The translations under genes and the position numbers were made by a program. A stretch of DNA of 40,792 nt from positions 1 to 40,792 of the forward strand of contig PHEU01000018.1 of assembly GCA_002841295.1 (NCBI GenBank), in the 5' to 3' direction. Below are positions 23,341 to 28,444 of this stretch, piece by piece. The notes under the pieces are model-generated. The model did not search any database and was not told where the DNA came from. It was given only the letters and a program-made list of their open reading frames with translations. The first letter of the stretch is position 1, and every line of letters begins with the position of its first letter. The stretch comes from Actinobacteria bacterium HGW-Actinobacteria-6 (GTDB lineage: Bacteria; Actinomycetota; Coriobacteriia; Anaerosomatales; Anaerosomataceae).

Positions 23341-23650
23341 GAAAAGAGCCGTCCCCCGTCCTGGTATGAATCCAAGGACGGGAACGGCTCCCGCGGTACC
23401 ACCCTGGTTGGCGCAAACATGCGCGCCCTCTCAGCACAAGCAGGCGTACTGCTCGCCACCGGTCTTATCCGGCTGTCCGATATCGGTGGACCCCGGCTTC
23501 CCTACTCAGGCGCTGGCCCGTTCAGGTCGCTGCTGGTGGAGTGAACCGTCCGCTGCGCTTCCCGGGGCTCTTCCAGTCCATGGAGCCCCTTCCCTGGCGG
23601 GAAACTCTTGTGCGAACGCATCTCCGTCATCGCGCTTGTATGATGCAATT
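23341..23650 (-). promoter_or_regulatory. T-box leader controlling pheST
   Basis: The minus strand contains the canonical T-box AGGGTGGTACCGCG (23392-23405), which pairs with uncharged tRNA through its NGG/ACC region. A strong terminator follows directly: GAGCCGT.CCCGTCC with its complement, then TTTTC (23341-23390). Upstream, a long paired region fits stem I; the triplet TTC followed by A (23543-23545) is a candidate phenylalanine specifier, though another TTC lies near 23611. By known T-box logic, uncharged tRNA-Phe would favour the antiterminator and pheST transcription. The T-box, terminator and downstream gene are certain; the specifier choice is not. Confidence 0.93.
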
Positions 23651-23668: not shown

Positions 23669-24070
23669 TCATCTGAGTGCCTCGATGAGCGCCGAGACGG
23701 CCTTGCCGCTCGGTATGACAACAGTCGCAACTCCACGTATACGGCGCTGTGGAATCGAGTCTCTGTCATCGACCGGATTGGCATCGCCGCGCGTTGTGAC
23801 ACTCCCGTCGGGGAGCACCGCAACCACGCGGTGGACAACCCCTCTCGGCCACTCCGGGTGATCGAAGTACACGATGTCCCCGGCTCTTAGCCCTTGCGCC
23901 GACCGCCGGTACACCACGACGTCACCGGGCGCCACGGTCGGCTGCATGGAGCCTCCTCGGATGAGTGTAGCCCCGAAGAACACAGCCACGAGCCCCCAGG
24001 CGGCGACAGTAACGAACTTCGCCACTCGCCGGGTCATTCGAAATCGGTCGCCGCCTGAAGACTCCGGCAT
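23669..24070 (-). CDS. SipW-like (ER-type) signal peptidase I
   Basis: A 133-residue membrane protease that would remove signal peptides outside the cell membrane. One N-terminal membrane segment spans about 17-37. The nucleophile Ser41 is in GGSMQPTVAPGD. The second catalytic position is a histidine (His80 in GVVHRVVAV), not the lysine of ordinary bacterial Lep enzymes, and TRGDANPVDD (93-102) supplies the conserved Gly-Asp and Asp. This Ser/His/Asp pattern is that of SipW, archaeal and ER signal peptidases (S26B). ATG 24070 overlaps the stop of the upstream secreted-protein gene as ATGA, so the two are coupled. The short C-terminus lacks a clear second membrane segment. Its natural substrate is inferred to be the partner at 24070-24552. 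Confidence 0.88.
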   Translation of the reverse strand: MPESSGGDRFRMTRRVAKFVTVAAWGLVAVFFGATLIRGGSMQPTVAPGDVVVYRRSAQGLRAGDIVYFDHPEWPRGVVHRVVAVLPDGSVTTRGDANPVDDRDSIPQRRIRGVATVVIPSGKAVSALIEALR

Positions 24071-24552
24071 CAGTGCACCTGCTCGGCATCCACGTAGAAG
24101 GTCATCTTCACGTAGTCACCAGTCAGTTCGTTTCCCGCCGAAGCCGGCAGACCAAGCCCGAATGTGAGCTTCGCTCGCGCTCCCGGGGCCAGCTCAAACG
24201 GCGATGTCTTGAGCACGCTGAGCGGCCCGTTATAGACAACGGCCCCGTCAGCTGCGACCTGACACGTGAGCGCGTTGTAGAACTCGGTGATGCCGGCTTT
24301 CTTGGCGCCTGTCACGACAAAACTGGCCGGTAGCGACCCTGCGTTCATCACCGTCAGGGTCCGCTCGGTGATGGTTCCGGGCGCGACGGAGTCCATCGAG
24401 ATCGCAGCTGACGTCGGCTCGCACGAAACCGCAACTCCTCCTGCCCGGATCATGTTCTCAGCAACCTCACCGCGTCCCGTGAAGTACGCGCCTGCGGACC
24501 CCGCACACGCAGCCACGCCGATTGCCAGCAACAACAACATGAAGCGCTTCAT
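24070..24552 (-). CDS. Secreted TasA/camelysin-like protein with SipW-type signal peptide
   Basis: A 160-residue exported protein. The N-terminus (MKRFMLLLLAIGVAACAGSA, then GAYFTGRGEVAENMIRAGG) has the look of SipW-dependent signals: a long hydrophobic stretch followed by a GAYFT box, with cleavage likely around residue 22. The mature part is a small beta-rich domain with a proline/glycine turn pattern (VAPGTITERTLTVMNAGSLPASFVV) like TasA, CalY and camelysin, and two cysteines (44 and 97) that could form a disulfide. TasA proteins build biofilm fibres in Bacillus; camelysins are cell-surface proteins. The ATG start has GGGGAGAG directly upstream. It is the first gene of a two-gene unit with the signal peptidase. 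Sequence similarity is at motif level only, so fibre formation is inference. Confidence 0.7.
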   Translation of the reverse strand: MKRFMLLLLAIGVAACAGSAGAYFTGRGEVAENMIRAGGVAVSCEPTSAAISMDSVAPGTITERTLTVMNAGSLPASFVVTGAKKAGITEFYNALTCQVAADGAVVYNGPLSVLKTSPFELAPGARAKLTFGLGLPASAGNELTGDYVKMTFYVDAEQVH

Positions 24553-24621
24553 AACTCTCCCCTTTCCTGGTGTCGCCGAGGGGAGAACGACGAGACTGGA
24601 CTGCCGCTTCTGCGGTCCACG

Positions 24622-24680: not shown

Positions 24681-24717
24681 ACACAAACGAAGAGCCCCGC
24701 AGATGCGGAGCCCTTCG
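24681..24717 (-). terminator. Terminator of the infC-rpmI-rplT operon
   Basis: A 14-bp stem (CGAAGGGCTCCGCA with TGCGGGGCTCTTCG, two G-U pairs, two-base loop) on the minus strand is followed by TTTGTGTT. It lies 22 nt after the rplT stop. Confidence 0.85.
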
Positions 24718-24739
24718 CTGAAGTCTAGTTGCGCTCTGA

Positions 24740-26323: not shown

Positions 26324-28444
26324 CTACTCTCTGGGTAGCACTACCGTGAACGTGCTCCCCTTGCCGTACTCACTCTCGAACTCAATCCTGCCGCCGAGCA
26401 CCTCCACCAAACGCCTCGAGATCGGGAGACCCAGCCCCGTGCCATCTGATCGGGCACCGTTCTCGTCCTCAACCCGGACGAACATCTCAAACACACGCCA
26501 CGCATCTTCCGCCCGTATGCCACGACCCGTGTCGCTCACGACGATCCTGACAGCTTGCTCGTCCGTACTGAGTGAGATCTCCACCGTACCAGCGTTGGTG
26601 AACTTCTCCGCATTGCCGAGAAGGTTCCAGAGGATCTGCTCGAGCAGCAGTGGATCCGTGTGGATGCACACGTTGGGCTCGATGACCCGAGAGAGCGCCA
26701 CGCGCTTGTGCTCAAGAGCCGGAGCGATGCGGTCGGCGACCTCACCACACAAATGTGAGATGTCGACTTCTTCAATGTTTGCCTCAACGGCACCTGCGGC
26801 GATGCGCGCGAGATCGAGAATTCCATCAACAACTCTCAGGAGATGGCGACCTGAGTCATTGATCATCTCAATCTGGCGGCGCTGTTCATCCGTGAGATCG
26901 CCCACCATTCCACCGGCAAGAAGACTTGAGAATCCGATGACCGAGTTGAGCGGTGTTCGCAGCTCGTGACTGAGATTCGCGAGGTATGCGTCCTTCGCGA
27001 CCGAGGCGCGCTCCAGCTCCTCATTCGCCTTGCTCAGCTCCCCTGTGCGCTCCTTGACGAGATCCTCCAGGTGCTGCTGATACTCAGCCACCTGGCGCTG
27101 GGCTTCGGCGCGTAGCGAGATGTCATTGACGATGGTGTACAACATCAAGTTGTCCCCGAAGTGCATCGGCGTAGAGTAGATCTCCACCTCAAACTGAGTG
27201 CCATCCGCACGGCAATGGGTGAACGTTCGGGCCCGGCCACCATCGGCGATCGTCTCAGTGACCTCACGCGCCACAATGTCATCCGAATCCACACTGAGTT
27301 CGCCAACAGTCATGCCAATCAAGCTCGCAATCGGCCAACCGTACATCTTGGCGGCAGCCGCATTGGCATCAAGGATCTTCGCGTCTTCGGCAGCGACGAG
27401 AAGCATCGGTGACAGGCTGCTCTCAAACAGCGTGGAGTACCTCTCCTCACTTTCACGAAGCTCGCGTTCCGCCCGAGCACGATCCGTGACGTCATGAATG
27501 ATCGAGTAAAGGAGATGACGCCCCTGGGCCACGATAGGACCAGTGAACACCTCGACATCGCGAAGCTCACCGGACGAGAGCCTGTGACAGAAACTGAAGG
27601 AGGCTCGCTCGCCAGCTGCAGCGCGCGCCATCTCGGCGGCAGCCTCCTGAGGGGAGAGCGTGTTGATCTGAGACATATGCATGGTTGCCAGCTGCTCCTG
27701 GCTCCACCCGTAGTATGCGGCTGCAGCGCCGTTCGCCTGGACTACTCTCTGGGTGCCGGGATCGACGATGAGCATCACGGATGCACTGTCCTCGAACATG
27801 GACCTGTACCGCGATTCACTCTCGCTCAACCGTTCCCGCGTTAGCTCGAAGTACGCGATAAGCGCGCCGAAGGCGATGATGAACTCGAGGAAGGCTCCGA
27901 ACATGAAACCAAAGGGGGCGAACGATGCCACTCCCCGCAAGAATGGGTAGTCGAGGTTATGCAGCCCCCATGTGATGAATGCGACTCCGGTGATCTTTCC
28001 CCACGGACCCGATTGCGTGATGCTGCGATACCAAACCACGCCGGCGGCGATGTTCGCGACTCCGCGAAACGTCCACGCAGCAATGCCGAGGTAGAACTCC
28101 GGGAGTGCGAGTGTGGCGGCGACGATAGTCCAAGCTGCGACAGCAAGCGCAAGGCCCCTGTGCCACTTCGGAATCGTCTTGCCGGCGAGGGCGTACGAGC
28201 CGTCCAGCAGTAAGACTCCAGTAACCAGGACGAGCAGGTAATTGACGAGCGCCGGGCCAACGGCCGTCGAGTGGCTGAGTACCTGATAGAGCTCGACCCC
28301 GAATCGCGCCGAATAGGCAAGCCAGGCGACCCCCCAGATGCCCATCCACGGCTCGCGTTCCCTCGCATACAGATACAAGAAGACCGCGGAAAGGATCACG
28401 CTTCCGCTCAAGATCGCGACGATGGCTGGTGCAAGCCAGCTCAC
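26324..28444 (-). CDS. Membrane PAS-PAS sensor histidine kinase (orphan)
   Basis: A 706-residue sensor kinase. Residues 1-200 form about seven hydrophobic segments, a membrane sensor resembling 7TM input domains. Two PAS domains follow (about 212-325 and 334-445), then a coiled coil (450-485), a HisKA domain with phospho-acceptor His493 in LSHELRTPLNS, and a HATPase domain with N607-LLGNAEKF, DTGRGI and GTGLGLPISRRLV. The start is GTG 28444, with GAGAGG about 7 nt upstream. It lies 33 nt behind thrS and may be read with it. No response regulator or other partner is encoded in the window, and the signal is unknown. Confidence 0.93.
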   Translation of the reverse strand: MSWLAPAIVAILSGSVILSAVFLYLYAREREPWMGIWGVAWLAYSARFGVELYQVLSHSTAVGPALVNYLLVLVTGVLLLDGSYALAGKTIPKWHRGLALAVAAWTIVAATLALPEFYLGIAAWTFRGVANIAAGVVWYRSITQSGPWGKITGVAFITWGLHNLDYPFLRGVASFAPFGFMFGAFLEFIIAFGALIAYFELTRERLSESESRYRSMFEDSASVMLIVDPGTQRVVQANGAAAAYYGWSQEQLATMHMSQINTLSPQEAAAEMARAAAGERASFSFCHRLSSGELRDVEVFTGPIVAQGRHLLYSIIHDVTDRARAERELRESEERYSTLFESSLSPMLLVAAEDAKILDANAAAAKMYGWPIASLIGMTVGELSVDSDDIVAREVTETIADGGRARTFTHCRADGTQFEVEIYSTPMHFGDNLMLYTIVNDISLRAEAQRQVAEYQQHLEDLVKERTGELSKANEELERASVAKDAYLANLSHELRTPLNSVIGFSSLLAGGMVGDLTDEQRRQIEMINDSGRHLLRVVDGILDLARIAAGAVEANIEEVDISHLCGEVADRIAPALEHKRVALSRVIEPNVCIHTDPLLLEQILWNLLGNAEKFTNAGTVEISLSTDEQAVRIVVSDTGRGIRAEDAWRVFEMFVRVEDENGARSDGTGLGLPISRRLVEVLGGRIEFESEYGKGSTFTVVLPRE

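Follow-up and report, generated by a model that had tools for sequence, protein, structure and literature searches.

What two small adjoining genes, one for a secreted TasA-like protein and one for an ER-type signal peptidase, are doing between rplT and pheST is the question raised by this locus. The genes lie in a 40,792-nucleotide stretch of Actinobacteria bacterium HGW-Actinobacteria-6 (the window analysed here), from the order Anaerosomatales (OPB41) of the class Coriobacteriia. Our preferred answer, which we hold to be probable though well short of assured, is that the pair forms a two-gene module for secretion and assembly. The genes and their boundaries are as follows.

24070..24552, minus strand: TasA/camelysin-family secreted protein, 160 aa, ATG start (PF12389, PDB profile match, AF2 model)
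23669..24070, minus strand: SipW-like ER-type signal peptidase, 133 aa, ATG start (TIGR02228, PF10502; Ser41, His80, Asp96, Asp102)
24068..24072, minus strand: TGATG, one-base stop/start overlap, from the sequence
24556..24567, minus strand: Shine-Dalgarno of the TasA-like gene, GGGGAGAG / GAAAGGGGAGAG, from the sequence
24686..24719, minus strand: terminator-like hairpin after rplT, between the pair and infC-rpmI-rplT (15-bp stem, -26.6 kcal/mol, z -6.2)
23371..23639, minus strand: T-box leader of pheST, downstream of the pair and outside the module (RF00230, E 8e-9)

An earlier note on this DNA had the two genes overlapping as ATGA. The actual junction is TGATG, in which the last base of the stop (TGA, 24072-24070) is also the first of the start (ATG, 24070-24068), an overlap of one base, not four. 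Ahead of the tasA start, a purine-rich tract is present in most relatives. The minus-strand order is HK - infC - rpmI - rplT - pair - T-box - pheS - pheT - argC, with rpmI recognised via a conserved frame in relatives. Because a strong hairpin follows rplT and a T-box precedes pheS, the pair is probably transcribed on its own as a short unit, separate from rplT before it and T-box-pheST after it; on the strength of these boundaries we rejected its being part of either operon. The T-box leader scores 47 bits, below the Rfam gathering score of 93, yet has clear hallmark motifs, and its core motif GGNACCGCG was found in 45/47 relatives. A simple scan for a sigma-70-like promoter serving the pair found none. 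In three relatives (loci L022, L031 and L082) the rplT-tasA gap is widened to 527-870 bp, perhaps with an extra gene. Further upstream, an ORF of 706 aa (26324-28444, minus strand), sensor-kinase-like and with PAS-like repeats, lies between infC and thrS, and related kinases occur near infC in several relatives, not all.

The TasA/camelysin-like assignment proposed earlier for the 160-aa protein is borne out by Pfam PF12389, Peptidase_M73 (25.8 bits, above the cut-off of 22.5), which 39/40 orthologues also match (E <= 0.01), and by a profile match to TasA. A single-sequence search of the PDB gave no significant match, so profiles were used; with distant relatives added, the profile found TasA at E 8e-10 (5OF1) and E 1e-9 (8AUR). 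This match consists of an N-terminal block and the final strand (34-83 and 142-162, in colinear order, the latter weak by itself), and the final strand of the TasA-like protein ends in xAxQ, with the Gln invariant in 27/27 aligned proteins. With the NCBIfam TasA equivalog NF046066 the window protein scored 12.5 bits, against a cut-off of 450, and with TIGR04088 (cognate_SipW) it gave no match. The BsaA family TIGR04090 did not list it at E <= 10 and matched 15/27 members of the wider alignment at E <= 1. Judged by its sequence, the protein is a relative within the TasA family and not TasA itself. The Pfam name M73, and nothing else, would speak for a camelysin-type metallopeptidase. We regard that candidate as scarcely credible, as the sequence is without HExxH; moreover, TasA itself is a fibre protein of the matrix, and the CalY proteins of B. 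cereus are required for pellicles (PMC9674648, PMC4475387).

Structure prediction points the same way. The AF2 model was built from an 18-row alignment (A2), not from the deeper order alignment, and has a pLDDT of 73 overall, mostly 75-94 over residues 51-160 and <50 for residues 1-39, so that confidence is low for the candidate donor segment. Its top structural match is the TasA fibre 8AUR (Z 8.6, rmsd 3.0, 122 aligned), followed by the CanA cannula (Z 8.1) and the P. calidifontis bundling pilin (Z 8.0), all three being self-assembling extracellular polymers. The TasA-like fold on which the earlier note had made its reading depend therefore ranks first, but with a small margin over generic beta-sandwiches, since unrelated Ig-like folds score Z 7.5-7.9. 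The fold alone would not decide the assignment; the sequence profile carries it and the fold agrees.

The 133-aa protein exceeds the cut-offs of both PF10502, Peptidase_S26 (34.2 bits against 22.9), and NCBIfam TIGR02228, the archaeal/ER-type signal peptidase (56.8 bits against 51.85), and aligns with the human SEC11A/C catalytic subunits. It has a Ser-His dyad instead of Ser-Lys, with conserved Asp, and S41, H80, D96 and D102 are each conserved in 45/46 aligned relatives, at least one alignment row being truncated. The earlier description of an ER-type enzyme with Ser41/His80 was accurate. Against the Bacillus SipW equivalog NF046067 it reached 25.7 bits, below the cut-off of 190.

Which proteins might such an enzyme cut? 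A SipW-type signal profile gave one strong match in each of three related genomes (G003, G006, G012) and two in the window's genome (G000), where the second lies on another contig in a separate four-gene cluster that has its own SipW. The statement that the TasA-like protein is the only local substrate was thus right, and it seems to be the sole substrate of the pair's peptidase genome-wide. The second cluster (contig C36, locus L072, 2558-5272) encodes a larger SipW (106 bits with TIGR02228), a 202-aa TasA-like/SipW-signal protein and two further products, a choice-of-anchor-D-like protein and one more exported protein; neither TIGR02228 nor the SipW-signal profile gave a strong counterpart of it in G003, G006 or G012. 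Extra PF12389 matches away from the rplT/pheST locus lie in clusters on G029 contig C20 and G031 contig C24.

ER-type peptidases are the general signal peptidase in archaea, and the housekeeping locus is conserved, so one could suppose that the enzyme is the general signal peptidase of the order and its TasA-like neighbour incidental. We consider this very unlikely and rejected it, as P-type signal peptidases are present: one is encoded in the window's own genome, where SipW is consequently not the only signal peptidase, and others in a genus that has no sipW (below). The single clear SipW-type substrate in each of the three related genomes, with the second in the window's genome attended by its own SipW, also tells against it. 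A dedicated module therefore remains our reading, and it is one without TapA, whose absence had been claimed earlier and is supported by TIGR04087: no match over the cut-off in 21 genomes, against 1/14 control genomes over it, with B. subtilis among the matching controls.

The start of the TasA-like protein bears most directly on how the two products might work together.

24487..24552, minus strand: SipW-type signal peptide, residues 1-22, ending A20-G21-A22 (orthologue alignment)
24439..24486, minus strand: predicted mature N-terminus, residues 23-38, YFTGRGEVAENMIRAG, candidate donor strand (compared with TasA 28-42)

The predicted mature part is residues 23-160, 138 aa. In 40/40 orthologues the cleavage motif reads A-x-A followed across the predicted site by [YF]-F, with A20, A22 and F24 invariant and residue 23 either Tyr or Phe. 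An aromatic residue at P2' is poorly handled by E. coli signal peptidase I, a P-type enzyme, and TasA, with Phe at P2', is processed by SipW (PMC10269814). A site of A-G-A then Tyr-Phe is accordingly ill-suited to an ordinary P-type signal peptidase, and the SipW-like enzyme would be expected to do the cutting. A lipoprotein reading of the signal peptide (VAAC) was rejected because the Cys is not conserved among orthologues. Both F24 and P58 are invariant in orthologues and correspond to TasA F29 and P62, F29 being part of the donor strand and P62 forming the 'proline box' at the interface between protomers (PMC9674648, PMC10151520). The profile alignment to TasA begins at about residue 31 and the segment before it was placed by the shared P2' Phe, so F24 was equated with F29 from the cleavage context that they share, the lengths differing by one residue.

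How widely is the pair kept? A profile search of the order, sampled across 16 families, found one full-length tasA-like orthologue in 66/69 genomes; one tasA-like copy in the sample is cut by a contig end, and the three genomes without the gene are 74-85% complete. Among 329 other genomes of the class there was no full-length orthologue, and in 16 of them the matches were weak or distant, the best with E 3e-13 where the order gives 1e-60 or better. Outside the class, a sample of the phylum gave E 6e-22 at best. The distant relatives examined have different surroundings, and most adjoin SipW-like genes. A search of viral contigs gave no relatives, and a literature search on a TasA-like/SipW module in Coriobacteriia returned nothing specific. 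Within the order the locus is stable: pheS lies downstream in 48/48 genomes with loci examined and rplT upstream in 39/47, the examined flank being short in the remainder.

The dedicated pairing of protease and substrate proposed earlier is supported, as sipW is the next gene after tasA, on the same strand, in 58/60 genomes. The earlier note had also held that the module reading would fail if relatives kept only one gene of the two; with both retained in 58/60 it stands as a rule but not as an absolute, because one genus (G028, G043) has tasA without sipW. In these two genomes tasA is followed only by the T-box before pheS, the TIGR02228 matches are weak and read as P-type signal peptidases, and the tasA orthologues retain the P2' Phe, suggesting no strict need for SipW in this genus. 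The gene has apparently been lost here, although the assemblies are fragmented (90% and 79% complete) and a copy may lie elsewhere. The genus offers a natural experiment on the role of ER-type signal peptidases.

Pairwise identities average 56% (TasA-like protein), 44% (SipW) and 70% (PheS), and dN/dS is 0.035-0.11 for tasA, 0.08-0.28 for sipW and 0.03-0.13 for pheS. Selection on the TasA-like protein is about as strict as on a tRNA synthetase, and the pair ranks among the fixed core functions of Anaerosomatales. Occurrence across the order, adjacency and selection together take the pair beyond chance. Whereas TasA-type proteins are chiefly familiar from accessory genes under biofilm control, a mostly uncultured subsurface order here has one as a core gene, present in single copy, under strong constraint and at a housekeeping locus.

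Constraint as strict as that on a housekeeping gene would also fit an essential envelope protein, and it is possible, if rather doubtful, that this TasA-family surface protein, though cut by SipW, forms no filaments and has, for instance, a structural role in the envelope as a wall-associated monomer or oligomer. Its beta-sandwich fold is a common one, and at 160 aa it is far shorter than TasA. However, the invariant F24 and P58 fall on the TasA protomer interface, the relatives of known structure that the sequence profile places nearest are filament proteins, and a wall-anchoring motif is not apparent by eye.

In the secretion and assembly module that we favour, the 160-aa pre-protein would be exported via Sec, and the co-translated SipW-like ER-type peptidase would cleave it between residues 22 and 23, releasing an N-terminal segment that starts YFTG. 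The mature 138-aa beta-sandwich would then be a compact TasA. By analogy with TasA we infer that polymerisation is extracellular, the freed N-terminal strand of one subunit inserting in the next, and that thin filaments could result without a TapA-type starter. A precedent for SipW-dependent self-polymerisation without helpers is the sipW-bsaA system of C. perfringens (PMC7395162). No anchoring or nucleating partner of the pair was identified.

Two members of the order are in culture, Anaerosoma tenue M08DHB and Parvivirga hydrogeniphila Es71-Z0120. Pili-like appendages cover the cells of both and are tied to no named gene; in one strain the appendages occurred only with solid ferrihydrite and a dense extracellular matrix formed in late stationary phase, and the reported appendage width is 0.8-0.9 nm, a figure that may be an error (PMC9686372). 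The genomes inferred to match both strains (G012 and G016, of the window's family) carry the pair in the same place, and the pair thus supplies a named candidate for the appendages of both cultured members. That these appendages, ferrihydrite-dependent in one strain, are donor-strand filaments of the compact TasA is a tentative proposal that we think improbable as it stands. If true, a TasA-type surface filament would define an order that belongs to neither Firmicutes nor Archaea, and two genes without a starter protein would suffice to make it. Type IV pili are an equally good or better candidate, since T2SSE/PilB-type ATPases are encoded in 31/31 genomes checked, with 3 to 11 T2SSE-family matches in each. 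We give an even chance to the appendages being type IV or Tad pili and the module doing other work, such as building the late-growth matrix, to which the dense late-stationary matrix of the one strain would correspond. Type IV pili are about 6-8 nm wide, so appendages of the reported width would be thinner, though the reported width may be wrong. The pili alternative concerns the appendage link and is compatible with a secretion-and-assembly module.

How new is such a module? The earlier note saw a minimal version of the Bacillus system in a different phylum; no TapA was indeed found, but B. cereus and C. perfringens both manage without it, and further TasA-like/SipW loci are known from other Actinobacteria, which makes this less of a novelty than the note suggested. 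The apparent novelty lies in how strictly the pair has been fixed at a single locus throughout the order, in the small size of the protein and in how strong selection is. Like B. subtilis tapA-sipW-tasA, the pair joins a SipW-type peptidase to a TasA-family substrate with P2' Phe, proline box, xAxQ end and beta-sandwich. It differs in having no TapA, in placing the substrate gene first and the peptidase second, in a mature protein of 138 aa against 234 for TasA, in its position at the rplT/pheST boundary, and in scoring below the NCBIfam equivalog cut-offs. C. perfringens sipW-bsaA, from an obligate anaerobe, also combines SipW with a self-polymerising substrate and no TapA: the transcript is bicistronic, and BsaA needs SipW for export and polymerisation and polymerises alone (PMC7395162). 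There, in contrast, sipW comes first, in a seven-gene operon with a two-component system, and the host belongs to the Firmicutes. B. cereus sipW-calY1/calY2 (camelysin) shares TasA-family proteins, SipW and the absence of tapA (PMC4475387, PMC10151520), but has two substrates and lies near sinI/sinR. The archaeal bundling pilins are TasA-related donor-strand filaments (PMC9674648) and resemble the window protein in fold (AbpA 7UEG, Z 8.0) and by a weak profile match (AbpX 9RHP, E ~1e-3 to 2e-3), although they belong to Archaea. Other Actinobacteria (Agreia, Agromyces, Microbacterium and others) have SipW clusters that likewise combine SipW with TasA-like proteins, these having AAW/AYW-type signals and, in those aligned, 15-27% identity to the window protein, but the clusters often have several substrates per peptidase and stand in other surroundings.
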